Positions 28,374 to 64,000 of a stretch of DNA of 64,000 nucleotides are shown piece after piece. Source of the stretch: Streptomyces sp. NBC_00091 (GTDB lineage: Bacteria; Actinomycetota; Actinomycetes; Streptomycetales; Streptomycetaceae); assembly GCF_026343185.1 (NCBI RefSeq), contig NZ_JAPEMA010000001.1:5642001-5706000 (forward strand), in the 5' to 3' direction. Below the pieces are notes generated by a model. The model saw only the letters and a list, made by a program, of their open reading frames with translations. It was not told where the DNA came from and made no database searches. The stretch's first letter is position 1; every line of letters begins with the position of its first letter. A program made the position numbers and the translations under genes.

Positions 28374-30428
28374 ATGCCGAGCGTGACAGAGTTCATAGGC
28401 CCTGGCGGAACCCGGAGTTCCACAGTCGAGCCGCTGCGCCCTGGTGATCCGAGGACCGTCGGTCCCTACCGCCTTGAGGGACGGCTGGGCGCGGGCGGCA
28501 TGGGGCAGGTCTTCCTCGGTACGTCCGCGAGCGGTCGCCGGGTCGCGGTGAAGCTGATCCGGCCGGAGCTGGCCGGCACCGCGCGGTTCCGGGAGCGGTT
28601 CGCGCGGGAGGCCGCCGCCGCGCGGCAGGTCGGCGGGTTCCACACGGCGCAGGTCGTGGAGGCCGATCCGGCGGCGGAACCGCCGTGGCTGGCCACCGCG
28701 TTCGTACCGGGTCCGACGCTGCAACAGCTGGTCGACGCCGGCGGGCCCCGCGACCCGGCGGCCGTGCTGCGGCTCGGCGCCGGGATCGCCGAAGGGCTGG
28801 CCGCGATCCACCGGTGCGGGCTCGTGCACCGGGATCTCAAGCCCGGCAACGTGATCGTGGCCGAGGACGGACCGCGCATCATCGACTTCGGGATCGCGCA
28901 CGAGCCGGGCGCGGACGCGATGACCCGGACCGGATCGGTCATCGGGACGTACGCCTACATGTCACCGGAGCAGGTACGGGGCGAGGCGCTCTCGCCCGCC
29001 GGCGACGTGTTCGCCTTCGGCTCGGTGCTCGTGTTCGCGGCGACCGGCCGCAGCCCGTTCGACGCGACGACCGTGCCGGCCATCGTGCACCGGGTCGTCA
29101 GCGAGCCGCCCCGACTCGACGGACTGGCCGCCCCCCTGCGCGAGCTGGTCGGGGCGTGCCTCGCCAAGGATCCCGCCCAGCGCCCCGGCATGGACGAGGT
29201 GCTGGCCCGGCTCTCGGTCACCGGGCCGGGCGCGGTGCCGCCCGCCGCGCCCGCCGCGCCCGGTGCGGCGTTCCATGCCCTGCCGACGCAACCGGCCGCG
29301 GCACCACCGGCCCCGCCCGGCCCGGCCGGTGCGCCCACCGCACCCGCGCCCGCCGGGGCCTTGTCCCGCCGTACGCTGCTCCTCGGCGGGGTGGGCGCCG
29401 CAGCGGCGGCCGCCGCCGTACCCGCCTATCTGTTCCGGGACTCCTGGCTGGGATCGGGGTCGGAGCAGGACCGGACCCGGCCCGTGGCCCGGCTCGAAGG
29501 GCACCCCCAGTCGCTGGTGGCTCTCGCCTTCAGCCCGGACGGCCGGACCCTGGCCGCCGGCGGGTCCGGCGGTGAGCTGTGGCTGTGGGACACCGTCACC
29601 CGCCGCACGATCACCAAGTTCGGGGGAGAGCCCCCGCGCGTCTTCGGCCTGGCCTTCAGCCCGGACGGCTGGACGCTGGTGGGCAGTTGCCAGGACGGAA
29701 CGCTGCGGCGCTGGGACGTGCGGACCCGGACGGCGCTGCCCGCGCTCTCCGGGTTCGAGACGCTCTCGGTTCCGACCCCGTACTCCCTCGCGGTCAGTCC
29801 GGACGGCGCGGTCCTCGCCGCGGCCGGCGGAGGCACGCTCCAGCTCTTCGACCTGACGAGCGGACGCCGCCTGAAGAAGATCGAAGCGGGCGAGCCGTCC
29901 GGCGTGCTGTTCACCCCGGACGGCAAGGGGGTGGCCACCGCTTCCCGGGAGCGGGTGTTGCTCTGGGACGTCGACGGCGGGGAACAACCCAGGACGTTCA
30001 CCGACGACTCCGCCGACTCCCCCTTCTACAGGGTGCTGATCAGCCCGGACGGAAAGACCATCGGCGGTGCGGGGCCCGGCGTCCATCTGTGGGACCTGGC
30101 GACCGGGCGGCCCACCGCCACCCTCACCTCGCCGCACCGGCGCCTCGAGGAGGCCGCGTACCGGCCCGGCCACCCGATGATCGCGGGCGGCGGCTTCGGG
30201 CTCGGTCCGGACGACGACGTCAAGGACGAGGCCAGAGCCGCCACGGGCGGCACGGTCAGCCTGTGGGACCTGAAGACCGGGCGGGTCGCCCGGACCCTCA
30301 CGGCCGACCTCGAGGAGTCGGCCGGGGCTCCCTTGCTCTCCGCCCTGGCGTTCAGTCCGGACGGCAAGACCCTCGCGGCGGCCTTCAGTCCGTCGGACAG
30401 CACGATCCAGCTCTGGCAGCTCGCCTGA
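28374..30428 (+). CDS. Ser/Thr protein kinase with C-terminal WD40-like sensor (paralogue 1)
   Basis: The 684-residue protein has a Hanks-type kinase domain at about 25-280: GRLGAGGMGQVFLG as the P-loop, catalytic Lys60 in VAVKLI, H152-R-D154 with LKPGN and D171-FG. A Pro/Ala linker (about 285-330) leads to one predicted helix, LLLGGVGAAAAAAAVPAYLF. The rest (about 370-684) has at least six repeats ending in SPDG...LWD, a WD40-type propeller that should be extracytoplasmic. ATG 28374 is chosen; GTG 28383 is possible. The next gene is a close paralogue. Confidence 0.92.
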   Translation: MPSVTEFIGPGGTRSSTVEPLRPGDPRTVGPYRLEGRLGAGGMGQVFLGTSASGRRVAVKLIRPELAGTARFRERFAREAAAARQVGGFHTAQVVEADPAAEPPWLATAFVPGPTLQQLVDAGGPRDPAAVLRLGAGIAEGLAAIHRCGLVHRDLKPGNVIVAEDGPRIIDFGIAHEPGADAMTRTGSVIGTYAYMSPEQVRGEALSPAGDVFAFGSVLVFAATGRSPFDATTVPAIVHRVVSEPPRLDGLAAPLRELVGACLAKDPAQRPGMDEVLARLSVTGPGAVPPAAPAAPGAAFHALPTQPAAAPPAPPGPAGAPTAPAPAGALSRRTLLLGGVGAAAAAAAVPAYLFRDSWLGSGSEQDRTRPVARLEGHPQSLVALAFSPDGRTLAAGGSGGELWLWDTVTRRTITKFGGEPPRVFGLAFSPDGWTLVGSCQDGTLRRWDVRTRTALPALSGFETLSVPTPYSLAVSPDGAVLAAAGGGTLQLFDLTSGRRLKKIEAGEPSGVLFTPDGKGVATASRERVLLWDVDGGEQPRTFTDDSADSPFYRVLISPDGKTIGGAGPGVHLWDLATGRPTATLTSPHRRLEEAAYRPGHPMIAGGGFGLGPDDDVKDEARAATGGTVSLWDLKTGRVARTLTADLEESAGAPLLSALAFSPDGKTLAAAFSPSDSTIQLWQLA

Positions 30429-30465
30429 CCGGCTGCCTCCCTCTTCATCTCAACGGACGGTACTC

Positions 30466-32541
30466 ATGGACGCGTTGTTGCCCCACGATCCGCGGTGGGT
30501 CGGCCCCTACCGCCTCGAGGGACGGCTGGGCGAGGGCGGCATGGGCCAGGTCTTCCTCGGTACGTCGCCGGGCGGCCGCCCGGTCGCGGTGAAGCTGATC
30601 CGCGCGGAGCTGGCCGGCACCACGCAGTTCCGGGAGCGGTTCGCGCGGGAGGTGGAGGCCGCGCGGCAGGTCGGCGGGTTCCACACGGCGCAGGTCGTGG
30701 ACGCGGACCCGGCGGCCGAATCCCCGTGGCTGGTCACCGCGTTCATCCCGGGCCCCACCCTCCACCGGGCGGTGACCGAGCACGGGCCGGTCGATCCGGC
30801 GGGGGCGCTGCGGCTCGGGGCGGGGCTCGCCGAAGGGCTCGCGGCGATCCACCGGTGCGGCCTGGTCCACCGGGATCTCAAGCCGGGCAACGTGATCCTG
30901 GCCGAGGACGGGCCGCGCGTCATCGACTTCGGCATCGCGCGGGCCGTGGACGCCAGTTCGCTGACCGCGACCGGATCGGTCATCGGGACCTACGCCTACA
31001 TGTCGCCGGAGCAGATCCGCGCCGACCGGGCCGGGCCCGCCAGCGACGTGTTCGCCCTCGGCTCGGTGGTCGCCTTCGCCGCGACGGGCCGTGGCCCGTT
31101 CGACGCGCCCTCCCTGGTGGCCGTGGTCCAGCGGATCCTGGACGAACCGCCCGCCCTCGACGGGATCGACGGCGAGCTCCGGGCCATCCTCACCGACTGC
31201 CTGGCCAAGGACCCGGCCGACCGTCCCGCCGTCGAGGGCCTGCCCGCCCGGTTCGCGGCTGCCCTCGCGGGGGCGGCGCGGGTCCACCCGCCGCGCCACG
31301 AACCGACCGTGGCGGCGGCCCCGTCCGTACGGACCCCACAGACCCCGCAGCCGCCGCCCACGGAGCGGGCCCAGGCGGTGAGCCCGGGACCGGCCGTGAG
31401 CCCGGGACCGGCTGCGGGCGGTCAGGACCCGCGCGCCCTGGCCGCCGCGGCGACGCGGACCTACGCGCCGCCGGCGGGCCCCGCGGCGCCGGGCCCCGGC
31501 GCCGCCGTACCCGGCCCCGGCAGCCCGGTACCCGGGCGGCCGACCGCCCCCGTACCCGGTCCGGCCCGCCGGGGGCCCTCGCGGCGCGCGCTGCTCATCG
31601 GCGGCGCCTCGGTCGCCGCGGCCGCCGCGATCGGGGTCCCCGCCTACCTGCTGCTGCGCAAGAGCGACGCCCTCGAGGGCCCGAAGAGCGCGTACGAGCT
31701 CGCCTTCAGTCCCGACGGGAAGACGCTGGCCGCCGCCGGAGGGGGCGGGGAGATCTGGCGCTGGTCGCTGCCCGGCAAGGAGAGCAGCTCCACCCGGATC
31801 AGCATCGCCAAGTACATCCAGCCGCACGTCTTCAGCCGGGACCTCAAGACGCTCTACCGGGCGGAGGAGCACAAGATCCTGAAGTGGGACGTCGCCACGG
31901 GCCGCACGGTCGGGACGTTCACCGGAGAGACCACGGGCGAGCCCCAGAACGGGTTCGTGCACGAGCTGGGGCTCAGCCCCGACGGGAAGACGCTGGCCGC
32001 CAGCAGCGGCCGGGGCCTGTACCTGTGGGACACCGGTTCCGGATCCCGGCTCGCCCTGCGCCAGGACGTCAAGAACGGCCCGGCCGTCTACAGCGCGGAC
32101 GGGGCGATGCTGGCCACCGGATCGCCGGTCCAGCTGCGGAACGGCTCGGCCGATGCCGTCCTGGCCACCCTCGACGCCACGGTCGCGACCAGCGCGGTCT
32201 TCAGCCCCGACGGCCAGCTCCTGGCCTTCGGCGACCAGGCCGAGGAGGTGCGCCTGTGGAACACCGCCACCCGGCAGGACGTCGCCGTCCTGGAGGGCCA
32301 CGACTCCCCGGTCCTGGCGGTCGCCTTCCACCCGGACGGGAGCGCGCTGGCCAGTGGTGACCGGGACGGCAAGGTGGTCGTCTGGTCCACCGCCTCCGCC
32401 ACCTCCACCGCGACCTACGAGCCCGGCGCCTCCGTCGAGGCGCTGGCCTTCAGCCCGGACGGGAAGTCGCTGGCCGCGGGGTGCAGCAGCGGCACGAGCG
32501 TCGGGAGCAATGACACGGTGTGGCTGTGGGAGCTCGGGTGA
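30466..32541 (+). CDS. Ser/Thr protein kinase with C-terminal WD40-like sensor (paralogue 2)
   Basis: The 691-residue protein repeats the layout of the preceding gene: kinase domain about 12-270 with Lys43, H135-R-D137 and D154-FG; a long Pro-rich linker containing VSPGPAVSPGPA; one helix (about residue 375); and a WD40-like region with [16 protein letters not shown] and SPDGKSLAAGCSSG. Kinase-domain DNA is nearly identical to the first copy over long stretches, for example around 28540-28690 and 30580-30730, whereas linkers and propellers differ. The genes are 37 bases apart and probably cotranscribed. Confidence 0.92.
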   Translation: MDALLPHDPRWVGPYRLEGRLGEGGMGQVFLGTSPGGRPVAVKLIRAELAGTTQFRERFAREVEAARQVGGFHTAQVVDADPAAESPWLVTAFIPGPTLHRAVTEHGPVDPAGALRLGAGLAEGLAAIHRCGLVHRDLKPGNVILAEDGPRVIDFGIARAVDASSLTATGSVIGTYAYMSPEQIRADRAGPASDVFALGSVVAFAATGRGPFDAPSLVAVVQRILDEPPALDGIDGELRAILTDCLAKDPADRPAVEGLPARFAAALAGAARVHPPRHEPTVAAAPSVRTPQTPQPPPTERAQAVSPGPAVSPGPAAGGQDPRALAAAATRTYAPPAGPAAPGPGAAVPGPGSPVPGRPTAPVPGPARRGPSRRALLIGGASVAAAAAIGVPAYLLLRKSDALEGPKSAYELAFSPDGKTLAAAGGGGEIWRWSLPGKESSSTRISIAKYIQPHVFSRDLKTLYRAEEHKILKWDVATGRTVGTFTGETTGEPQNGFVHELGLSPDGKTLAASSGRGLYLWDTGSGSRLALRQDVKNGPAVYSADGAMLATGSPVQLRNGSADAVLATLDATVATSAVFSPDGQLLAFGDQAEEVRLWNTATRQDVAVLEGHDSPVLAVAFHPDGSALASGDRDGKVVVWSTASATSTATYEPGASVEALAFSPDGKSLAAGCSSGTSVGSNDTVWLWELG

Positions 32542-35443: not shown

Positions 35444-35457
35444 TGTAACGGGTTCTA
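35444..35457. promoter_or_regulatory. KstR-type operator upstream of the acyl-CoA dehydrogenase
   Basis: TGTAACGGGTTCTA fits the KstR consensus TnnAACnnGTTnnA exactly and lies 55 bases before the start at 35512. KstR is the TetR-family repressor of actinobacterial steroid and fatty-acid genes. A second match lies at 60016-60029. Confidence 0.6.
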
Positions 35458-35511: not shown

Positions 35512-36702
35512 GTGCACCTCGAATACACGCCTGAGCAGCAGCAGTTGCGCACCGAGCTGCGCGCCTACTTCGCCCGGCTGATCCCTGAGGACGTCCACGC
35601 CCGTTACGAGGACCCCGCCGCGCAGAAGCGCTTCTACCGGGAGACCATCCGCCGGCTCGGCGCCGACGGCTGGCTCGGGGTCGGCTGGCCCGAGGAGTAC
35701 GGCGGGCGCGGCATGTCCCCGATGGACCAGTTCATCTTCTTCGACGAGGCCGCGCAGGCCGTCGTTCCGCTGCCGCTGATGGCGCTCAACACCGTGGGCC
35801 CGACCATCATGCAGTTCGGCACCGACGAGCAGAAGGCGTACTTCCTCCCCAAGATCCTCGCCGGTGAGATCGACTTCGCCATCGGCTACAGCGAGCCGGA
35901 CGCCGGCACCGACCTGGCCGCCCTCAAGTGCAAGGCGGTCCGCGAGGGCGACGAGGAGAGCGGCACCTACGTCGTCAACGGCCAGAAGATCTGGACCACC
36001 AACGGCGACACCGCCGACTGGGTCTGGCTCGCCGTCCGCACCGACCCGCAGGCCCCCGCGCACAAGGGCATCACCATGCTCCTCGTGCCGACCTCCGACC
36101 CCGGCTACTCCTGCACCCTCATCAACACCCTCGCCTCGCACGACACCACCGCCAGCTACTACGAGAACATCCGCGTCCCCGCGAGCCGCCGCGTCGGGCA
36201 GGAGAACAAGGGCTGGCGCCTGATCACCAACCAGCTCAACCACGAGCGCGTCACCCTCGCCGCCCACGGCACGATGGCCATCCGCGCCCTGCACGACGTC
36301 CAGCGCTGGGCCGCCGGGACGAAACTCGCCGACGGCCGCCGCGTCATCGACCTCACCTGGGTCCGCGGCCGCCTCGCCCGCACCCACGCCCGGCTCGACG
36401 CGATGAAACTGCTCAACTGGCAGATGGTCAACGCCGTCCAGTCGGGCACCCTCACCCCGCAGGACGCCTCCGCCGTCAAGGTCTACGGCTCCGAGGCGCG
36501 CAGGGACGCGTACGCCTGGCTCATGGAGATCGTCGGCGCGGCGGGCTCCCTCAAGGACGGCTCGGCGGGCGCGGTCCTGCACGGCGAACTGGAACGCGGC
36601 TACCGCAGCGCCGTGATCTTCACCTTCGGCGGCGGCAACAACGAGATCCAGCGCGAGATCATCTCCTGGATCGGCCTCGGCATGCCAAGGGTCCGCCGCT
36701 GA
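35512..36702 (+). CDS. Acyl-CoA dehydrogenase
   Basis: The 396-residue flavoenzyme has the full fold: N-terminal helical domain (EYTPEQQQLRTELRAYFARL), FAIGYSEPDAGTDLAALKC and KIWTTNGDTADWVWLAVR around the FAD/substrate site, and C-terminal FTFGGGNNEIQREIISWIGL. It should introduce the alpha-beta double bond into an acyl-CoA. The last block and NHERVTLAAHG recall actinobacterial steroid-type dehydrogenases (FadE26/28 group), which often work as heteromers; no second subunit is adjacent. The GTG start has GGAGG seven bases upstream. The upstream KstR-type box suggests lipid or steroid induction. Confidence 0.92.
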   Translation: MHLEYTPEQQQLRTELRAYFARLIPEDVHARYEDPAAQKRFYRETIRRLGADGWLGVGWPEEYGGRGMSPMDQFIFFDEAAQAVVPLPLMALNTVGPTIMQFGTDEQKAYFLPKILAGEIDFAIGYSEPDAGTDLAALKCKAVREGDEESGTYVVNGQKIWTTNGDTADWVWLAVRTDPQAPAHKGITMLLVPTSDPGYSCTLINTLASHDTTASYYENIRVPASRRVGQENKGWRLITNQLNHERVTLAAHGTMAIRALHDVQRWAAGTKLADGRRVIDLTWVRGRLARTHARLDAMKLLNWQMVNAVQSGTLTPQDASAVKVYGSEARRDAYAWLMEIVGAAGSLKDGSAGAVLHGELERGYRSAVIFTFGGGNNEIQREIISWIGLGMPRVRR

Positions 36703-48293: not shown

Positions 48294-49400
48294 ATGGAGA
48301 CGGAGCTGAGCAAGAAACTGGGAGTCGAGCACGCCATCTTCGGTTTCACGCCCTTCCCGGCGGTCGCCGCGGCCATCACCCGCGCAGGCGGATTCGGCGT
48401 ACTCGGCGCGGTCCGCTACACCGCTCCCGGCGACCTCAAACGCGACCTCGACTGGATGCAGGCGCACACCGACGGCAAGCCCTACGGCCTCGACGTCGTG
48501 ATGCCCGCCAAGAAGGCCGTCGACGGCATCAGCGAGGCCGACATCGAGGCGATGATCCCGGCCGGACACCGCGCCTTCGTCCGCGACACCCTCGCCAAGC
48601 ACCACGTGCCCGAGCTCGCCGAGGGCGAGGCCTCCGGCTGGCGGATCACCGGCTGGATGGAGCAGGTCGCCCGGAGCCAGCTCGACGTCGCCTTCGACTA
48701 CCCCATCAAACTCCTGGCGAACGCGCTGGGTTCCCCGCCCGCCGACGTCATCGCCCGCGCCCACGAGAACGGCGTCCTCGTCGCCGCCCTCGCCGGGACC
48801 GCCAAGCACGCCCGCCGCCACGCCGAAGCCGGCATCGACATCGTCGTCGCCCAGGGCTACGAGGCCGGCGGCCACACCGGGGACATCGCCACCATGGTCC
48901 TGGTCCCCGAGATCGCCGAGGCCGTCGCCCCGCTCCCGGTCCTCGCCGCCGGCGGCATCGGCAGCGGCGAGCAGATCGCCGCCGGCCTCGCCCTCGGCGC
49001 CCAGGGCGTCTGGCTCGGCTCCCTCTGGCTCACCACCACCGAGGCCGACCTGCACTCCCGCGCCCTCACGGAGAAGCTCCTCGCCGCCGGCTCCGGCGAC
49101 ACCGTCCGCTCCCGCGCCCTCACCGGCAAACCCGCCCGCCAGCTGCGCACCGAGTGGACCGACGCCTGGGACGACCCCGACGGGCCCGGGGCCCTGCCCA
49201 TGCCGCTCCAGGGCCTGCTGGTCGCCGAGGCCGTCTCCCGGATCCAGAAGTACGAGGTCCAGCCGCTGCTCGGCACCCCCGTGGGCCAGATCGTCGGCCG
49301 GATGAACAGCGAACGCAGCGTCCAGGCCGTCTTCGACGAGCTCACCGGCGGCTTCGAGCGCGCCATCGACCGCATCACCCGTATCGCCGGCCGGTCCTGA
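48294..49400 (+). CDS. Nitronate-monooxygenase-family FMN oxidoreductase (Rv1533-like)
   Basis: The 368-residue TIM-barrel flavoprotein starts LGVEHAIFGFTPFPAVAAAI and GGFGVLGAVRY and has AQGYEAGGHTGDIATMVLVP (FMN phosphate and catalytic His region) and VLAAGGIGSGEQIAAGLALG. The match in pattern is to mycobacterial Rv1533. Members oxidise alkyl nitronates or act as reductases; a role on CoA-linked substrates is suggested by the acyl-CoA synthetase starting 13 bases after its stop. Confidence 0.9.
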   Translation: METELSKKLGVEHAIFGFTPFPAVAAAITRAGGFGVLGAVRYTAPGDLKRDLDWMQAHTDGKPYGLDVVMPAKKAVDGISEADIEAMIPAGHRAFVRDTLAKHHVPELAEGEASGWRITGWMEQVARSQLDVAFDYPIKLLANALGSPPADVIARAHENGVLVAALAGTAKHARRHAEAGIDIVVAQGYEAGGHTGDIATMVLVPEIAEAVAPLPVLAAGGIGSGEQIAAGLALGAQGVWLGSLWLTTTEADLHSRALTEKLLAAGSGDTVRSRALTGKPARQLRTEWTDAWDDPDGPGALPMPLQGLLVAEAVSRIQKYEVQPLLGTPVGQIVGRMNSERSVQAVFDELTGGFERAIDRITRIAGRS

Positions 49401-55693: not shown

Positions 55694-57058
55694 TCAGCCG
55701 CCCGCCGGTATGCCCCGGCCCTCCCCGGAGTCGCCCGGGTCCCGGAGGTCCTTCACCCGCTTGATCTTGCCCACCGAGCGCTCCAGGCTCTCCGGCTCCA
55801 CCACCTCGACGGCGACGGACACCCCCACGGACTCCTTGACGGCCCGCACCAGCTCCCCGGCCGCCGCCCGTCGCCTCCCGGCATCGGCCTCCCGGCGCGC
55901 CTCCACCCGCACGGTCAGGGCGTCCAGCCGGCCCTCCCGGGTCAGCCGCAGCTGGAAGTGCGGGGCGAGCCCGGGGATCCGCAGGAGTATCTCCTCGATC
56001 TGGGTCGGGTAGAGGTTCACCCCCCGCAGGATGATCATGTCATCGCTGCGGCCGGTCACCTTCTCCATCCGGCGGAAGGCGGGCCGGGCGGTCCCCGGCA
56101 GCAGCCTCGTCAGGTCCCGGGTGCGGTAGCGGACGACCGGCATGGCCTCCTTGGTGAGGGAGGTGAACACCAGCTCCCCGGGCTCCCCGTCCGGCAGCAC
56201 CGCCCCGGTCAGCGGATCGATCACCTCGGGGTAGAAGTGGTCCTCCCAGATGTGCAGGCCGTCCTTGTGCGAGGCGAACTCCTGGGCCACGCCCGGTCCG
56301 ATCACCTCGGACAGGCCGTATATGTCCACGGCGTCGATGCCCAGCCGGTCCTCGATCTCCCGGCGCATCTCCTCGGTCCAGGGCTCGGCGCCGAAGATCC
56401 CGGTGCGCAGCGAGGTGCCGCGCGGGTCGATGCCCTGGCGCTCCATCTCGTCCAGCAGCGTGAGCATGTAGGAGGGGGTCACCATGATCACCTCCGGGCG
56501 GAAGTCCTGGATCAGTCTGACCTGGCGGTCCGTCATGCCCCCGGAGGCCGGGACGACCGTGCACCCCAGGCGCTCCGCGCCGTAGTGGGCGCCCAGACCC
56601 CCGGTGAACAGGCCGTACCCGTACGCGATGTGCACGATCTGCCCCGGCCGGCCGCCCGCCGCGCGCAGCGACCGGGCGACGACATCGGCCCAGGTGGCCA
56701 GATCCCCGTCGGTGTAGCCCACCACCGTGGGGCGGCCGGTGGTGCCGCTGGAGGCGTGGATGCGGCGCACCTCGGTGCGGGGGACGGCGAACATTCCGAA
56801 GGGGTACTGCTCGCGCAGGTCGGCCTTGGTGGTGAGGGGGAAGAGGGAGAGGTCCGCGAGCGAGCGGCAGTCGTCGGGATGCACCCCCGCCTTGTCGAAG
56901 GCCTGCCGGTAGAAGGCGACGCGGTCGTACGCCCGGTGCAGGGTGGCCCGCAGCCGCCGCAGCTGGAGCGCCGCCAGCTCGTCGGGGCTCAGCCGCTCGC
57001 CTTCGTCGTGGAAATCCTCGGGGTCGCCGAGACCCGTACGCGCCGTCATTGCCGTCAT
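55694..57058 (-). CDS. paaK: Phenylacetate-CoA ligase-type enzyme (PaaK)
   Basis: The 454-residue ANL ligase has the PaaK signatures RIHASSGTTGRPTVVGYT (P-loop), AYGYGLFTGGLGAHYGAERL, YGLSEVIGPGVAQEF and ILRGVNLYPTQIEEILL. It converts phenylacetate or another aryl acid to the CoA thioester. I start at ATG 57058 after GAGG spaced 8; the ATG-ACG-GC triplets are a 9-bp tandem repeat. The other paa genes (paaABCDE) are not in view. An ACCGAA-TTCGGT operator precedes it. Confidence 0.92.
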   Translation of the reverse strand: MTAMTARTGLGDPEDFHDEGERLSPDELAALQLRRLRATLHRAYDRVAFYRQAFDKAGVHPDDCRSLADLSLFPLTTKADLREQYPFGMFAVPRTEVRRIHASSGTTGRPTVVGYTDGDLATWADVVARSLRAAGGRPGQIVHIAYGYGLFTGGLGAHYGAERLGCTVVPASGGMTDRQVRLIQDFRPEVIMVTPSYMLTLLDEMERQGIDPRGTSLRTGIFGAEPWTEEMRREIEDRLGIDAVDIYGLSEVIGPGVAQEFASHKDGLHIWEDHFYPEVIDPLTGAVLPDGEPGELVFTSLTKEAMPVVRYRTRDLTRLLPGTARPAFRRMEKVTGRSDDMIILRGVNLYPTQIEEILLRIPGLAPHFQLRLTREGRLDALTVRVEARREADAGRRRAAAGELVRAVKESVGVSVAVEVVEPESLERSVGKIKRVKDLRDPGDSGEGRGIPAGG

Positions 57059-57099
57059 TGCCGTCACCTCATCGTCGAGAGTCGGACCACCAGAAGCCA

Positions 57100-57160
57100 A
57101 CCGAACGTTCATTCGGTAGATTGCCGGACCCCGCCGGGTAAATCAATGACTCGAACGAGT
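57100..57160. promoter_or_regulatory. Operators in the paaK-hydrolase divergent promoter
   Basis: ACCGAACGTTCATTCGGT (57100-57117) is a palindrome with 6-bp perfect arms, of the type bound by TetR-family PaaR-like regulators. ACTCGAACGAGT (57149-57160) is a second short palindrome, 14 bases before the hydrolase ATG. The regulator gene is not in this window. Confidence 0.6.
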
Positions 57161-58246: not shown

Positions 58247-59878
58247 TCAGCGTGCGGCGTCCGCCTCCGTGGCCACCGCCTTCGCCCAGCGGTAGTCCGC
58301 CTTGCCGCTCGGGGAGCGCTGGACGGCCGGCGTGATCACCAGCTGGCGCGGGATCTTGTAGCCGGCCAGCCGGGTCCGGCAGTGGCGCTGGATCTCCTCC
58401 AGCGTCGGCTCCGGCGCCCCGTCCCGTACCTGGACCACCGCGGCCACATGGCTGCCCCACGTCGGGTCCGGGACACCCGCCACCAGGGCGTCGTACACGT
58501 CCGGATGCGACTTCAGCGCCTGCTCGACCTCCTCCGGATAGACCTTCTCGCCACCGGTGTTGATGCACTGCGAGCCGCGCCCCAGCACGGTGACGATGCC
58601 CTGCTCGTCGACCGTCGCCATGTCGCCGAGCAGGACCCAGCGCTCCGTGCCCTTCTGGAAGAAGGTCTCCGCCGTCTTCACCGGGTCGTTGTAGTAGCCG
58701 AGCGGGACGTGCCCGCGCTGCGCGAGCCGCCCGGGCACGCCGACCGGCACCGGCTCGTGCGACACCGGGTCCACCACCTGCGTACGGTCGTTGACCTGGA
58801 GGCGGAAGCCCTTCTCCGGGCCGGAGTCGTCCGTCGCCCTGCCGTTGGACCCGGACTCGGAGGACCCGAAGTTGTTCAGGAGCACCACGTGCGGCACCAG
58901 GCGCTGGAACTCGGCGCGGACGGTCTCCGACATGATCGCCCCGGACGAGGAGACGCTGAACAGCGAGGACAGGTCCGTCCCCTTCAGCGGGCCGTTCAGG
59001 GCGTCGATGAGCGGCCGGAGCATCGCGTCGCCCACCAGCGACACGCTCGACACCTTCTCCTTCTCGATGGTGCGGAGCACTTCCTCGGGCGCGTACTTGC
59101 GGTGGATGACCACCCGCTGGCCGTAGTTGAAGGCGATGAACGAGGTCAGCGTCGAGGTGCCGTGCATCAGCGGGGGCGCCGGGAAGAAGGTGAGCCCCGC
59201 GCCGCGCGCCGCGACCCGCTCGGCCAGCTCCTCCGGCCGCTTCACCGGCTCGCCCGAGGGCTCCCCGCCGAACAGCCCCGCGAAGAACAGGTCTTCGGCC
59301 CGCCACATGACGCCCTTGGGCATACCGGTGGTGCCGCCGGTGTAGATGATGAACAGGTCGTCCGCGCTGCGCGGCGGGAAGCCGCGCCCCGGGGACCCGG
59401 CCGCCTCCGCGTCCTCGTACGCGACTGGCGCGATCGCCGGCTCCGGAGCGCCCTCGGGCGCCGGCCCGACCCGGATCAGGTGCCGCAGCTTCGTCGTCTG
59501 CGGCAGCGCGGCCGCCACCCGCTCCGTGAACTCGCCCTCGAAGACGAGCGCGGCGAGGTCGGCGTCGTCGTAGAGGTAGACCAGCTCCTCCTCCACGTAC
59601 CGGTAGTTGACGTTCACCGGTACCAGGCGGGCCTTGAGGCAGGCCAGTACGGTCTGCAGGTACTCGATCCCGTTGTAGAGGTGCAGCCCCAGGTGTTCGC
59701 CGGGCCTCAGTCCGCTGTCCAGCAGGTGGTGCGCGACGCGGTTCGCCGCCGCGTCCAGCTCCGCGTACGTGAGGCGGCGCTCGGCGCCGGTCCCGGGGTG
59801 GTCCACGTACACCAGCGCCTCGCGGTCCGGGACCACGTCCACGACCGACTCGAACAGGTCGGCAAGGTTGTACTCCAC
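58247..59878 (-). CDS. Acyl-CoA synthetase, FadD19-like
   Basis: The 543-residue ANL enzyme has LFIIYTGGTTGMPKGVMWR; the TGG and PKGVMWR variant is characteristic of mycobacterial FadD19-type ligases, which activate the C26/C24 side chain of sterols. Other motifs are LNNFGSSESGSNGR, LLGDMATVDEQGIVTVLGRG and SPSGKADYRWAK (catalytic Lys). The GTG at 59878 has AGGAGG at five bases. As in M. tuberculosis, it diverges from an EchA19-like crotonase, with KstR-type and TCTGAC sites between. Side-chain fatty acids are an alternative substrate. Confidence 0.88.
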   Translation of the reverse strand: MEYNLADLFESVVDVVPDREALVYVDHPGTGAERRLTYAELDAAANRVAHHLLDSGLRPGEHLGLHLYNGIEYLQTVLACLKARLVPVNVNYRYVEEELVYLYDDADLAALVFEGEFTERVAAALPQTTKLRHLIRVGPAPEGAPEPAIAPVAYEDAEAAGSPGRGFPPRSADDLFIIYTGGTTGMPKGVMWRAEDLFFAGLFGGEPSGEPVKRPEELAERVAARGAGLTFFPAPPLMHGTSTLTSFIAFNYGQRVVIHRKYAPEEVLRTIEKEKVSSVSLVGDAMLRPLIDALNGPLKGTDLSSLFSVSSSGAIMSETVRAEFQRLVPHVVLLNNFGSSESGSNGRATDDSGPEKGFRLQVNDRTQVVDPVSHEPVPVGVPGRLAQRGHVPLGYYNDPVKTAETFFQKGTERWVLLGDMATVDEQGIVTVLGRGSQCINTGGEKVYPEEVEQALKSHPDVYDALVAGVPDPTWGSHVAAVVQVRDGAPEPTLEEIQRHCRTRLAGYKIPRQLVITPAVQRSPSGKADYRWAKAVATEADAAR

Positions 59879-59971
59879 CGTTCCTCCTGACCCGAAAAAC
59901 CTCATGGCTGGGCTGCTCGGCGGTCATTAGAGCGCCGCCCGGTCCAACTGGGAAGGGCGCACGCGAAGAAA

Positions 59972-59988
59972 TCTGACTGAGTGTCAGA
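59972..59988. promoter_or_regulatory. TCTGAC palindrome in the fadD19/echA19-like promoter
   Basis: TCTGACTGAGTGTCAGA has perfect 6-bp arms (TCTGAC/GTCAGA) and a 5-base centre, 65 bases before the crotonase ATG. Its reverse complement resembles the site at 48234-48250. Confidence 0.65.
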
Positions 59989-60015
59989 AAACTATTGAAC
60001 TGCACCCGGCCCTCC

Positions 60016-60029
60016 TGCAACCTGTTCTA
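60016..60029. promoter_or_regulatory. KstR-type operator in the fadD19/echA19-like promoter
   Basis: TGCAACCTGTTCTA fits TnnAACnnGTTnnA. It lies 24 bases before the crotonase start, a repressing position. In mycobacteria the equivalent fadD19-echA19 promoter is KstR-controlled. Confidence 0.65.
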
Positions 60030-60052
60030 GGTCTTGAGACGGGAGGACGGCA

Positions 60053-60853
60053 ATGGGTGGGACCGAACACCTGACCGCGGAGCGCCGCGGCGCCACGCTG
60101 GTGCTCACCATGAACAGGCCCGAAGCGAAGAACGCGCTCTCGCTTCCCCTGTTGGTGGGCCTGTACGACGGCTGGCTGGAGGCGGACGCGGACGACACGG
60201 TCCGCTCGGTGGTCCTGACGGGCGCGGGCGGCGACTTCTGCGCCGGGATGGACCTCAAGGCGCTCGCGGGCAAGGGCATGGCGGGCGACCAGTACCGGGA
60301 CCGGCTCAAGGCCGACCCCGACCTGCACTGGAAGGCGATGCTCCGTCACCACCGGCCGCGCAAGCCGGTGATCGCCGCGGTGGAGGGGTACTGCGTCGCG
60401 GGCGGCACCGAGATCCTCCAGGGCACCGACATCCGGGTCGCCGGGGCCGGGGCCACGTTCGGGCTGTTCGAGGTCAAGCGGGGGCTGTTCCCGATCGGCG
60501 GCTCCACGGTGCGGCTGCCGCGGCAGGTGCCGCGCACGCACGCGCTGGAGATGCTGCTGACCGGCCGCCCGTACTCGGCCGAGGAGGCGGCGCGGATCGG
60601 GCTCGTGGGGCGGGTGGTGCCCGACGGGACGGCGCTGGAGGCGGCGCTGGAGACCGCCGAGCTGATCAACGCGTGCGGGCCGCTGGCCGTCGAGGCGGTG
60701 AAGGCGTCCGTCTACGAGGCCGCCGAGCTGACGGAGACGGAGGGGCTCGCGGCCGAACTGGTGCGGGGCTGGCCGGTCTTCGACACGGCCGACGCGAAGG
60801 AGGGGGCGCGGGCCTTCGCGGAGAAGCGCCGCCCGCTCTACCGCCGAGCCTAG
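60053..60853 (+). CDS. Enoyl-CoA hydratase/isomerase family protein, EchA19-like
   Basis: The 266-residue crotonase has oxyanion motifs GAGGDFCAGMDLKAL and EGYCVAGGTEILQGTDIRVA, plus GLFEVKRGLFPIGGSTVRL and C-terminal DAKEGARAFAEKRRP. GGTEILQGTDIRVA and the tail correspond closely to M. tuberculosis EchA19, a sterol side-chain enoyl-CoA hydratase. I see the expected catalytic-glutamate region in GTEILQG. GGGAGG 8-9 bases upstream supports ATG 60053. Confidence 0.9.
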   Translation: MGGTEHLTAERRGATLVLTMNRPEAKNALSLPLLVGLYDGWLEADADDTVRSVVLTGAGGDFCAGMDLKALAGKGMAGDQYRDRLKADPDLHWKAMLRHHRPRKPVIAAVEGYCVAGGTEILQGTDIRVAGAGATFGLFEVKRGLFPIGGSTVRLPRQVPRTHALEMLLTGRPYSAEEAARIGLVGRVVPDGTALEAALETAELINACGPLAVEAVKASVYEAAELTETEGLAAELVRGWPVFDTADAKEGARAFAEKRRPLYRRA

Positions 60854-61014
60854 GCGCTGGCCGCAGGTGCACCAGCCCCCCCCCGCCGCGCCCCGGGCCT
60901 GCGGCCCTGCCCCGGGCGCGTCCGGGTCCGCCGTGGTCCGCGTGGGCCGGTTGGGAATCCGGCGGTCCCGCCGCACCTCCTCCGCGCGGCAGAACGGCAT
61001 CACGGCACAGCCGG

Positions 61015-61290
61015 GGAACGGCACCACCGCGCCCGCCGCCGCGCGGCAGATCCGAACCACCGCGCCCGCCGCCGCACGGCAGATCCGAACCACCGCGGCC
61101 GCCGCCGCACGGCAGATCCGAACCACCGCCCCCGCCGCCGCACGGCAGATCCGAACCACCGCGCCCGCCGCCGCACGGCAGATCCGAACCACCGCGCCCG
61201 CCGCCGCACGGCAGATCCGAACCACCGCCCCCGCCGCCGCACGGCACAACCGAACCACCGCCCCCACCGCCGCGCAGCGGAACGGCACCG
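61015..61290. repeat. 33-bp minisatellite array
   Basis: A 33-bp unit repeats with exact period: the word agatccgaaccaccgc starts at 61048, 61081, 61114, 61147, 61180 and 61213, with degenerate units at about 61015, 61246 and 61279. Units differ at a few C/G positions. The period is divisible by three, so several frames stay open (11-residue repeats such as TTAPAAARQIR or HGRSEPPRPPP). The flanks 60854-61014 and 61291-61359 hold nothing else I can identify except a ribosome site for the next gene. Confidence 0.9.
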
Positions 61291-61359
61291 CGTGAGCCAC
61301 CCACCGCACCGCCGTCCGTCGGCCAACCCGCCCCCTCACGGAGAATCGGAGACCCGCCC

Positions 61360-62322
61360 ATGACAGCCGCGTCCCCGCCCGAGGTGCTGCGTGCGCCTCT
61401 CGTCGTCGAGTTCCCCTTCACCCGCTCCCTCGGACCCGTCCAGAGCGCCTTCCTCACGGGCCTCCGCGAAGGCGTCGTGCTCGGCGTCAAGACCTCCGAC
61501 GGCCGCGTCATGGTGCCGCCCGCCGAGTACGACCCCGTCACCGCCGAGGAGATCCGGGAGCTCGTCGAGGTCGCCCCCACCGGCACCGTCACCACCTGGG
61601 CCTGGAACGGGGAGCCCCGCCCCCACCAGCCCCTCGCCGCTCCCTTCGCCTGGGTCCTCGTACGCCTCGACGGCGCGGACACCGCGATCCTGCACGCCCT
61701 CGACGCTCCCGGCCCCGAGGCGGTGTCCACCGGGATGCGGGTACGGGTCCGCTGGGCCCCCGAACGCACCGGGGCCATCACCGACATCGCCTGCTTCGAG
61801 CCGTACGGGGGCGAGGAGACGGGAGGGGCGGCCACCCCGCACGACGGGGTCTTCGCCGAGCCCGTCACCGGCATCGTCGCCGAGGCCCGCCTGGACTACA
61901 CCTACAGCCCCGGCCGCGCCCAGACCGCCTACATCAACGCGCTCTCCGAGCGGCGCACCGTCGGCGAGCGCTGCCCCTCCTGCCACAAGGTCTACGTCCC
62001 CCCGCGCGGCGCCTGCCCCACCTGCGGCGTGGCCACCACCGACCGGGTCGAGGTCGGCCCGGCCGGGACCGTCACCACCTACTGCATCGTCAACATCAAG
62101 GCGCGGAACCTCGACATCGAGGTCCCCTACGTCTACGCCCACATCGCCCTCGACGGCGCCGGCCTCGCCCTCCACGGCCGGATCGGCGGCATCCCGTACG
62201 ACCAGGTCCGCATGGGCCTGCGCGTCGAACCGGTGTGGACCGACGGCGGCCGCCACCCCGACCACTACCGCCCCACCGGCGAACCGGACGCGGACTACGA
62301 CGCGTACAAGGAGCTCATCTGA
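61360..62322 (+). CDS. Tandem DUF35 OB-fold / Zn-ribbon protein (Rv3521-like)
   Basis: The 320-residue protein has an N-terminal OB-like domain (about 40-150) without Zn ligands and a C-terminal domain with the rubredoxin-type Zn ribbon RCPSCHKVYVPPRGACPTCG (about 205-225) and OB fold. DUF35 proteins act as partners and gatekeepers of thiolase-like acyl-CoA enzymes. Here the gene overlaps (ATGA-type) the next thiolase-fold gene, as Rv3521 precedes ltp4 in mycobacteria. GGAG lies about 10 bases before the ATG; upstream repeats are in the same open frame but I infer they are untranslated. Confidence 0.88.
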   Translation: MTAASPPEVLRAPLVVEFPFTRSLGPVQSAFLTGLREGVVLGVKTSDGRVMVPPAEYDPVTAEEIRELVEVAPTGTVTTWAWNGEPRPHQPLAAPFAWVLVRLDGADTAILHALDAPGPEAVSTGMRVRVRWAPERTGAITDIACFEPYGGEETGGAATPHDGVFAEPVTGIVAEARLDYTYSPGRAQTAYINALSERRTVGERCPSCHKVYVPPRGACPTCGVATTDRVEVGPAGTVTTYCIVNIKARNLDIEVPYVYAHIALDGAGLALHGRIGGIPYDQVRMGLRVEPVWTDGGRHPDHYRPTGEPDADYDAYKELI

Positions 62323-63401
62323 TGGCCAGGACGAGCAGGCACGCACGCGACGTGGCCGTCGTCGCCTTCGCCCAGAGCGACCACCTGCGCCGCACCGACG
62401 AACTCAGCGAAGTCGAGATGGTGATGCCGGTCCTGCACCAGGTCCTGGCCGCCACCGGCCTCAAGGCGGGCGAGATCGGCTTCACCTGCTCCGGCTCCAG
62501 CGACTACCTGGCCGGCCGGGCCTTCTCCTTCACCATGACCCTCGACGGGGTCGGCGCCTGGCCGCCGATCTCCGAGTCGCACGTCGAGATGGACGGCGCG
62601 TGGGCGCTCTACGAGGCCTGGGTCAAGATCCAGACCGGCGAGGCCGACACCGCGCTCGTCTACGCGTACGGGAAGTCCTCCCCGGGCTCCGTGCGCGACG
62701 TCCTCACCCGGCAGCTCGACCCGTACTACCTCGCCCCCCTGTGGCCCGACTCGGTGGCCCTGGCCGCCCTCCAGGCGCAGGCGCTGATCGACGCGGGGGA
62801 GACCGACGAGCGCGCGCTGGCCGCCATCGGCGCCCGCAGCCGGGCCGCCGCCGAGGGCAACCCGCACGCCCAGCTCAGCGGAGCCGTCCCGCAGGGCGGC
62901 TACCAGGTGCGGCCCCTGCGTACGGGCGACTGCCCGCCCGTCGGGGACGGCGCGGCCGCCGTCGTGCTGGCCGCGGGCGACCTCGCGCGGCGGCTGTGCG
63001 AACGGCCCGCCTGGATCACCGGCATCGACCACCGCATCGAGGCCCACGGCCTGGGCCTGCGCGACCTGACCGACTCCCCGTCCACCCGGATCGCCGCCGA
63101 GCACGCCGGGGTCTTCGAAGGCCCCGTCGACACGGCGGAACTGCACGCGCCGTTCTCCTCCCAGGAGGTCGTGCTCCGCAAGGCCCTCGGACTCGGCGAA
63201 GGCGAAGGCGACGCGGTGGCCGTCAACCCCTCCGGCGGGGCCCTCGCCGCCAACCCCGTCATGGCCGCCGGCCTGATCCGGATCGGCGAGGCGGCCGCCC
63301 GCATCCACCGCGGCGAGTCCCACCGGGCCGTCGCCCACGCCACCTCCGGCCCCTGCCTCCAGCAGAACCTGGTCGCCGTCCTGGAAGGGGACCCGGCATG
63401 A
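62322..63401 (+). CDS. Thiolase-fold acyl-CoA protein, Ltp4-like
   Basis: The 359-residue protein follows the thiolase fold with GFTCSGSSDYLAGRAFSFT, VEMDGAWALYEAW, PPVGDGAAAVVLA, NPSGGALAANPVMAAGL and SGPCLQQNLVAVLEG. The usual nucleophile motif (CASG) is replaced by DGAWAL, so it is not a normal Claisen thiolase; Ltp2-type members are retro-aldolases on steroid side-chain CoA esters and need a DUF35 partner. It overlaps both neighbours by 1-4 bases, indicating a stoichiometric complex. Confidence 0.88.
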   Translation: MARTSRHARDVAVVAFAQSDHLRRTDELSEVEMVMPVLHQVLAATGLKAGEIGFTCSGSSDYLAGRAFSFTMTLDGVGAWPPISESHVEMDGAWALYEAWVKIQTGEADTALVYAYGKSSPGSVRDVLTRQLDPYYLAPLWPDSVALAALQAQALIDAGETDERALAAIGARSRAAAEGNPHAQLSGAVPQGGYQVRPLRTGDCPPVGDGAAAVVLAAGDLARRLCERPAWITGIDHRIEAHGLGLRDLTDSPSTRIAAEHAGVFEGPVDTAELHAPFSSQEVVLRKALGLGEGEGDAVAVNPSGGALAANPVMAAGLIRIGEAAARIHRGESHRAVAHATSGPCLQQNLVAVLEGDPA

Positions 63402-64000
63402 GCACACAGGGCAAGGAGCCCGTAGCCGTCGTCGGCATCGGCCAGACCAAGCACGTCGCCGCCCGCCGCGACGTCTCCCTCGCCGGCCTGGTCCGCGAGG
63501 CCGCCGCCCGCGCCCTCGCCGACGCCGAGCTGACCTGGGCGGACATCGACGCGGTCGTCATCGGCAAGGCCCCCGACTTCTTCGAGGGCGTGATGATGCC
63601 GGAGCTCTACCTGGCGGACGCCCTCGGCGCGGTCGGCAAACCGATGCTCCGCGTCCACACGGCGGGGTCCGTCGGCGGGTCCACCGCCCTGGTCGCCGCC
63701 AACCTGGTCGCGGCCCGCGTCCACCGCACCGTCCTGACCCTCGCCTTCGAGAAGCAGTCCGAGTCCAACGCCATGTGGGGGCTCTCGCTCCCCGTCCCCT
63801 TCCAGCAGCCGCTGCTGGCGGGCGCGGGCGGCTTCTTCGCCCCGCACGTGCGCGCGTACATGCGGCGCACCGGCGCGCCCGACACGGTGGGCTCGCTCGT
63901 CGCCTACAAGGACCGGCGCAACGCGCTGAAGAACCCGTACGCGCACCTTCACGAGCACGACATCACCCTGGAGAAGGTCCAGGCGTCGCCGATGCTCTGG
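63398..64000 (+). CDS. Thiolase-fold protein, Ltp3-like, N-terminal part (runs off the window)
   Basis: The first 201 residues are visible. VAVVGIGQTKHVAARRDVSL, AGLVREAAARALADAELTW and RVHTAGSVGGSTALVAANLV are the lipid-transfer/thiolase type; the position of the thiolase Cys has Ser or Gly in AGSVGG. MWGLSLPVPFQQP and LLAGAGGFFAPHVRAYM follow. The ATG overlaps the stop of the upstream gene. The order DUF35 - ltp4 - ltp3 equals the mycobacterial one. Confidence 0.85.
   Translation, partial: MSTQGKEPVAVVGIGQTKHVAARRDVSLAGLVREAAARALADAELTWADIDAVVIGKAPDFFEGVMMPELYLADALGAVGKPMLRVHTAGSVGGSTALVAANLVAARVHRTVLTLAFEKQSESNAMWGLSLPVPFQQPLLAGAGGFFAPHVRAYMRRTGAPDTVGSLVAYKDRRNALKNPYAHLHEHDITLEKVQASPMLW

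Follow-up and report, generated by a model that had tools for sequence, protein, structure and literature searches.

The closest described counterparts of the system considered here are the KstR regulon of Mycobacterium and the enzymes that shorten branched sterol side chains. For KstR, the available text of Kendall 2007 (PMC1995591) gives a 14-bp consensus, TNNAACNNGTTNNA, with boxes of this type in M. tuberculosis at Rv3515c/Rv3516 and Rv3520c/Rv3521, and with KstR-bound boxes at Rv3515c/Rv3516 and Rv3503c/Rv3504. For the enzymes, the accessible part of a review (PMC6678751) states that FadD19 forms the C26 coenzyme A (CoA) ester, that FadE26-FadE27 desaturates it, and that, once carboxylation and hydration have taken place, Ltp3-Ltp4 splits the C24-C25 bond of branched side chains, leading to androstenedione (AD). 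Here we describe a 64-kb stretch of DNA from Streptomyces sp. NBC_00091 (the window, 64,000 nucleotides in all) that ends in a five-gene block with a KstR-type box and a second palindrome, CTGACN5GTCAG, in the intergenic region between its two divergent arms. The block is probably the C24-branched-sterol part of a side-chain regulon under a KstR-like repressor, with a second regulator acting at CTGACN5GTCAG. Our best reading of the regulon as a whole is that it is KstR-type, mostly restricted to the side chain, and subject to an undescribed second input, with a substrate that would be a sterol.

The window has a G+C content of 74%, and the gene order at its end is fadD19(-) | echA19(+) - DUF35(+) - ltp4(+) - ltp3(+), so that all five genes named in the first-pass annotation are present in the order and orientation it had described. 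These identities are read directly from the sequences. The fadD19-like gene (58247..59905, minus strand), which starts with an ATG at 59905 or alternatively a GTG at 59878, encodes a steroid-side-chain CoA ligase that scores 731 bits against PRK07798 (NCBIfam cut-off 543) and carries the PKGVMWR loop. The echA19-like gene (60053..60853, plus strand) encodes an enoyl-CoA hydratase containing GGTEILQGTDIRVA, with 405 bits against PRK07799 (NCBIfam cut-off 316), and its top PDB matches are the EchA19 entries 6wyi (252 bits) and 4f47 (249), followed by a third-best match at 205. The next gene (61360..62322, plus strand) encodes an Rv3521-like protein whose C-terminal module is a zinc-ribbon/OB-fold of the ChsH2 DUF35 type, recognized through the Pfam domains zf-ChsH2 and OB_ChsH2_C (PF12172 and PF01796); an NCBIfam search with this protein gave zero matches. 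The ltp4-like gene (62322..63401, plus strand; PRK07937 / NF005924, 561 bits, cut-off 419) and the ltp3-like gene (63398..64000, plus strand; PRK08313 / NF006180, 348 bits as a fragment, cut-off 514), the latter truncated by the window end, encode thiolase-fold aldolase subunits. The stop and start overlaps that had been pointed out are real and lie in the last three genes, at 1 nt for DUF35/ltp4 and 4 nt for ltp4/ltp3. The signature motifs claimed earlier are likewise seen, namely PKGVMWR, GGTEILQGTDIRVA and the zinc-ribbon DUF35 protein. The nucleophilic cysteine of thiolases also appears to be missing, with VEMDGAW in Ltp4 and TAGSVGG in Ltp3 at the corresponding segment, as judged by eye without an alignment. 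In the one relative read beyond ltp3 (L110), the next gene encodes a 79-amino-acid protein of another kind.

The first-pass annotation had matched this block to its mycobacterial counterpart from signature motifs. Genomes of M. tuberculosis and Rhodococcus were replaced in this comparison by mycobacterial-type genomes that share the layout, defined as the six genomes with an EchA19 over the equivalog cut-off out of 246 in a phylum sample; M. tuberculosis gene numbers were taken from Kendall 2007 (PMC1995591) and from the first-pass annotation. In 6/6 of these genomes, the best match of the window FadD19 is the FadD19 encoded beside EchA19. The reverse search, conducted from one genome (G190), ranked the fadD19 of the block first in 6/6 Streptomyces (443-451 bits, with the next-best match overall at 175), and the reciprocal-best-match test proposed for these proteins is thus passed for FadD19. 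The EchA19, DUF35, Ltp4 and Ltp3 proteins were compared in one direction with the syntenic G190 locus and are 45-69% identical to their counterparts there. In total, seven window genes are matched in two adjoining stretches of G190, with identities of 44% for FadD19, 53% for EchA19, 45% for DUF35, 56% for Ltp4, 69% for Ltp3, 53% for FadE26 and 54% for a nitronate-monooxygenase-like protein; FadE26 is also 49% identical to a second G190 acyl-CoA dehydrogenase. The fadD19 gene is divergent from echA19 in 6/6 mycobacterial-type genomes, and in 4/6 the interval between the two holds a strict KstR box. This evidence supports the assignment of the block as the match of the mycobacterial FadD19/EchA19/Rv3521/Ltp4/Ltp3 sterol side-chain block.

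Within Streptomyces, the best relatives of Ltp4 are 93-94% identical proteins. The best 80 Ltp4 relatives among named genomes (79 from Streptomyces and one from an 'Actinobacteria bacterium') provided loci in which the DUF35, ltp4 and ltp3 genes are present in 80/80 cases, echA19 in 76/80 and fadD19 in 75/80. All five genes are found in 75 of these loci, and the remaining five begin at a contig edge. Because the loci were chosen by likeness to Ltp4, they are uninformative on the frequency of the block. An echA19-to-ltp4 stretch of 81% identity is also carried on the Streptomyces clavuligerus plasmids NZ_CP065260.1, NZ_CP065243.1 and NZ_CP065257.1.

Two boxes of the form TNNAACNNGTTNNA occur in the window, where 0.03 would be expected. 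One, TGCAACCTGTTCTA (60016..60029), has its last base 23 bp ahead of the echA19 start, and the other, TGTAACGGGTTCTA (35444..35457), lies upstream of a fadE26 (ChsE4)-like acyl-CoA dehydrogenase gene (35512..36702, plus strand). The product of the latter gene matches PDB 4x28_A at 448 bits and Tcur3483 (6wy8) at 414, followed by a match at 139; we take PDB 4x28 to be ChsE4-ChsE5 (FadE26-FadE27) of M. tuberculosis and Rv3504 to be fadE26. The two boxes therefore sit at the same two places as those given by Kendall 2007 for Rv3515c/Rv3516 and Rv3503c/Rv3504. A comparison of 76 fadD19|echA19 intergenic regions (the window plus 75 loci) found the core of the echA19 box, CTGCAACCTGTT, kept in 75 of them, and no strict box was found upstream of the DUF35 gene in the loci of the relatives. 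A putative -35 element, TTGAAC (59995..60000, plus strand), is proposed from conservation only, the columns TTGaA being conserved across 80 upstream sequences; a scan of 59850-60100 with the sigma-70 consensus called no promoter. Since TTGAAC stands 17 nt ahead of CAACCT (60018-60023) inside the box, this arrangement points to a -10 region lying under the box.

The box is also conserved at other promoters, as read in the best 30 loci per search over 41 genomes. It is present upstream of the kstR-like gene in 29/30 loci (relatives only), upstream of hsd4B in 29/30, and upstream of fadE26 in 29/30, of which 28 are strict and one is off by one base. It is likewise found at 3/3 fadE34 loci whose upstream sequence was read, and at eight more fadE34 copies from a set in which box-less copies would not have shown. 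In 338 kb around the kstR-like and hsd4B genes of 11 genomes, there are 30 strict boxes versus 0.23 expected by a Markov model. When the same pattern was followed through four Streptomyces genomes, several matches looked like chance, for example one that falls, in each of the four, within what by eye is a succinate dehydrogenase subunit gene. A chance origin of the box and of the second palindrome was considered as well and was rejected by the observed versus expected counts.

This second palindrome, the operator-like TCTGACTGAGTGTCAGA (CTGACN5GTCAG, 59972..59988), occurs once in the window, where 0.08 copies would be expected. It is present in 76/76 fadD19|echA19 intergenic regions, window included, and its last base lies exactly 28 bp ahead of the box in 75/75. 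A slightly larger set has the palindrome at 81/82 echA19, 28/33 hsd4B and 3/3 fadE34 promoters, and it was found at 0/32 fadE26, 0/37 kstR-like and 0/15 cholesterol oxidase promoters. The 338 kb described above contain 28 copies versus 0.6 by the Markov model, distributed as 10 at hsd4B, eight at fadE34, eight at an LLM oxidoreductase gene, one at a thiolase gene and one beside a box without a called fadE34. The LLM oxidoreductase belongs to the Rv3520c family (448 bits, cut-off 335) and is 50% identical to the product of the LLM gene adjoining the DUF35 gene of G190. An SCP2-type thiolase gene in genome G027 has a site of its own (L289 822). The motif was not found in eight G190 stretches or in six mycobacterial-type fadD19|echA19 loci, and a literature search with five spellings found it in none of the papers searched.

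On the minus strand only, the echA19 copy of this palindrome is scored as a short hairpin resembling a terminator as well. A terminator is unlikely to be its main role, because the motif recurs at unlinked promoters. We infer instead that CTGACN5GTCAG is the site of a second regulator that acts on part of the regulon. The exact 28-bp spacing in 75/75 loci and the near-invariant operator columns point to purifying selection on both elements.

Tracing the box through the four genomes gave the members of the wider regulon. These are genes for a TetR-type protein and a cholesterol oxidase, fadE26, an hsd4B-like gene with alcohol dehydrogenase and hsd4A-like genes behind it, a FadE34-like gene with an SCP2-type thiolase gene behind it and, in one genome, a FadE27-like gene adjoining a paa cluster. 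The TetR-type gene lies outside the 64-kb window. Its product is closest to the KstR family NF033703 (197 bits, with the next family at 48), scores about 139 bits against PDB KstR chains, and shares 43% identity with the G190 KstR. The latter protein is over the NF033703 cut-off (334 versus 280), and its gene is transcribed divergently from fadE34, a box lying between the two. We use the name KstR-like because the Streptomyces protein is below the curated cut-off in every genome.

The boxed FadE27-like gene encodes a protein with a 185-bit match to 4x28_D. In genome G003, this gene (L087 1501-2704) has its own KstR-type box and is located directly behind the paa operon, far from fadE26. The boxed cholesterol oxidase scores 765 bits against 1coy and 605 bits against the 1b4v/1mxt chain. 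Members of its clade, at ~71% identity or more, have a strict box within 150 bp at 10/14 loci, and a looser pattern over 220 bp, which is weaker evidence, finds a box at 15/15. A strict box within 150 bp is found at 0/16 loci of a second clade, at ~51-55% identity, which gives no support to the box as a general feature of cholesterol oxidases in the genus.

To place the regulon within the genus, we took an even sample of 150 genomes from the genus to which G004, the source of the S. goshikiensis locus L014, belongs. The KstR-like gene was counted at E <= 1.3e-38 only, given that at E <= 0.001 the search is positive in 13/14 control genomes. It is found in 140/150 genomes (partial in G149), and the other 10 have weak matches only. 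Over its cut-off, ltp4 is found in 104/150 genomes, comprising 103 of the 140 with the KstR-like gene versus one of the 10 others (Fisher p = 1e-4, kinship uncorrected).

The two markers of ring opening are scarce by comparison. KshA_C exceeds 280 bits in 9/150 genomes; any match is found in 39, all others being <=101 bits, and 38 genomes pass the low Pfam cut-off of 23.3. The HsaC query was a ring-cluster gene of G074 that is HsaC-like and below the cut-offs of both HsaC (338 versus 450) and a biphenyl-diol dioxygenase family (354, cut-off 366). At E <= 1e-40, a relative of this protein is present in 27/150 genomes, among which the top scores (249-693 bits) belong to the same nine KshA genomes, and a further three (G018, G072 and G095) stand at 230-236 bits. 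The strong KshA and HsaC-like pair, which serves as the criterion for complete 9,10-seco steroid degradation, is thus found in nine of 150 genomes, all nine with ltp4, and is missing from most of this sample, including 95 of the 104 genomes with ltp4. This rarity fits Bergstrand 2016 (PMC4810484), whose available text reports the steroid pathway as absent in 55/57 Streptomyces. The idea that ring genes, if present, belong to the regulon was not borne out, as the two ring clusters read (G016 and G074) have no intergenic box and one degenerate match, located inside a gene. An IclR-type regulator gene is found near each of these clusters (L209-L210 in G016 and L214-L215 in G074).

These observations are consistent with a model whose statements on repressor binding, inducing ligand, substrate, assembly of an enzyme complex and end products are predictions. 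The KstR-like TetR repressor, whose gene lies elsewhere in the genome, would bind the TNNAACNNGTTNNA boxes over the promoters and let go of them as a CoA thioester of the sterol side chain accumulates. The second regulator would bind the CTGACN5GTCAG sites that lie ahead of some genes of the regulon. The window itself provides FadD19, FadE26, EchA19, DUF35, Ltp4 and Ltp3 for this pathway. FadD19 would yield the C26-oyl-CoA, which FadE26 and the FadE27-like partner would desaturate. EchA19 performs the hydration step in side-chain degradation and would here hydrate the desaturated CoA ester. A DUF35/Ltp4/Ltp3 complex might then split C24-C25 by a retro-aldol reaction, removing the branch, after which Hsd4B, Hsd4A, FadE34 and the SCP2-type thiolase would carry beta-oxidation onward. 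Both the presence of a DUF35 partner and the apparent absence of the thiolase cysteine fit an aldolase, by analogy with Ltp2-ChsH2, and such a complex had been suggested from the gene overlaps. The sterol acid could be supplied by C27 hydroxylation of the CYP125A13 type, an activity on cholesterol that the accessible text of PMC9728343 reports for Streptomyces peucetius. Presumably, the products in most strains are acetyl-CoA, propionyl-CoA and a truncated steroid, the last being the likely end product given how few Streptomyces carry markers of ring opening.

Several results weigh against this interpretation. The surveys of the kstR-like and ring genes cover other genomes of the genus rather than that of the window strain. 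The echA19 product misses the cut-off of the EchA19 equivalog NF051848 in NCBIfam (363 bits versus 400) and is therefore called EchA19-like. The full 14-bp strict motif is found in only 39/76 intergenic regions, with 35 of the non-strict boxes reading CTGCAACCTGTTCTCG and ending in CTCG. The boxed cholesterol oxidase clade occurs in only 14/41 genomes searched, and 37 of the 140 genomes with the KstR-like gene lack an ltp4 over cut-off (that of G132 being in two pieces). NCBIfam gives the CYP125 name to neither of two G016 cytochrome P450s, one of which adjoins fadE26 and is closest to a cyclodipeptide-synthase-associated P450 family (368 bits, cut-off 500). In G190, the P450 that occupies the CYP125 position also goes without this name, so the NCBIfam naming is blind to CYP125 here. 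Finally, the KstR-like protein is over the NF033703 cut-off of 280 in 0/150 genomes (best 204 bits), and because it never reaches this value its ligand may differ.

The last point is also an argument for a non-sterol substrate: the acyl-CoA sensed by the KstR-like protein would be some other polycyclic or isoprenoid one, and the acid in question would be debranched by the aldolase. A strong KshA and HsaC-like pair in only 9/150 genomes and the 55/57 Streptomyces lacking the steroid pathway in Bergstrand 2016 (PMC4810484, available text) can be read in the same manner. However, this explanation sits poorly with a cholesterol oxidase clade that is boxed, with a set of side-chain orthologues that includes FadE26, FadE34, hsd4A and hsd4B, and with the cholesterol-active CYP125A13 reported in the accessible part of PMC9728343, and we consider it unlikely. 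The first-pass annotation, having seen no steroid ring genes, had offered another branched or cyclic acid as a possible substrate; a sterol is likelier, because the shared regulon has both a cholesterol oxidase and the FadE26 orthologue.

The opposite alternative, complete sterol mineralization, assumes that the window strain has ring genes elsewhere and that the block is one part of a full pathway. The nine genomes with both markers all have ltp4, and in G016 the KshA gene is ~46 kb from ltp4, although the HsaC-like gene is far away. Set against this are the 95 ltp4 genomes without the strong pair (three of which, G018, G072 and G095, have the 230-236-bit HsaC relative) and the two ring clusters without an intergenic KstR box, which together make mineralization distinctly improbable. 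That the genes and boxes are a disused relic of a sterol-degrading ancestor is very hard to credit: ring markers are mostly absent, 46/150 genomes have no ltp4 over cut-off and the gene is in pieces in G062, G064 and G132, but the listed matches over cut-off are free of internal stops, and the invariant spacing and near-invariant operator columns imply purifying selection.

Other features of the window are less closely tied to the side-chain regulon. The nitronate-monooxygenase-like gene (48294..49400, plus strand), whose product has 54% identity (353 bits) to that of the gene directly beside fadD19 in G190, has no box upstream and is followed by an acyl-CoA ligase gene. A 33-bp tandem repeat of 7.6 copies (95% matches, one frame open) occupies 61023..61273 in the gap between echA19 and the DUF35 gene. 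No repeat was found in this gap in one relative (L002), another (L001) has repeats of a different, looser kind, and the repeat is probably incidental. A PaaK phenylacetate-CoA ligase is encoded at 55694-57112 (TIGR02155, 701 bits, cut-off 646), and no neighbouring paa gene was noticed. At 28500-32541, two serine/threonine-kinase-like genes lie side by side and resemble each other in their N-terminal parts, by eye a tandem duplication.

What is added here beyond the earlier annotation is the control of the block, through KstR-type boxes and a second palindrome. Mycobacterial side-chain genes occur in many Streptomyces, apparently with the same kind of sterol-sensing repressor, in a genus that comparative genomics had put almost outside the sterol degraders (55/57, available text of PMC4810484). 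A literature search of papers outside subscription found no report of a KstR-type side-chain regulon in Streptomyces, and the only mention of SCO2319 found was in the accessible text of Kendall 2007 (PMC1995591). If our interpretation is correct, much of the genus has inducible sterol side-chain removal without a ring pathway, and CTGACN5GTCAG offers a directly testable handle on the second regulator. A more tentative extension, which is possible rather than probable, is that this genus-wide, two-input regulon strips C24-branched plant and fungal sterols and leaves a released C19 or C22 steroid ring skeleton. Industry has mutated mycobacteria to a side-chain-only state for the production of C19 and C22 steroids. 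Side-chain-only Streptomyces would match this engineered state, and androgen-like or pregnane-like steroids would, on this view, be released by Streptomyces in soil.

Among known systems, CYP125A13 of Streptomyces peucetius demonstrates sterol side-chain oxidation in the genus, but it is a single enzyme, and the accessible text of its paper (PMC9728343) mentions no regulation. The Ltp3-Ltp4 aldol-lyase of Rhodococcus rhodochrous (available text of PMC6678751) likewise has two tandem thiolase-fold proteins, recognized here from the genes alone, whereas the Streptomyces block also encodes a DUF35 protein upstream. A zinc-ribbon/OB DUF35 module (a weak match of 44 bits) with thiolase-fold subunits recalls the Ltp2-ChsH2(DUF35) aldolase (PDB 6ok1), which is nevertheless distant in sequence, the DUF35 protein here having 320 amino acids with an extra N-terminal half. 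The likeness to the KstR regulon of Mycobacterium, compared at Rv3515c/Rv3516, Rv3521-Rv3523, Rv3504 and Rv3573c/Rv3574 (PMC1995591, available text), includes orthologous genes, the same 14-bp consensus, a box at fadE26, a fadD19 gene divergent from echA19 with a box between, and a boxed kstR promoter. In contrast, the Streptomyces genes are dispersed, the kstR-like gene is divergent from a glycosyltransferase gene rather than fadE34 in the loci read, and echA19 is contiguous with DUF35-ltp4-ltp3, with no strict box ahead of DUF35. The Streptomyces system also differs in being mostly without ring-opening markers and in carrying an additional palindrome, unseen in the mycobacterial-type stretches read, at part of its promoters.

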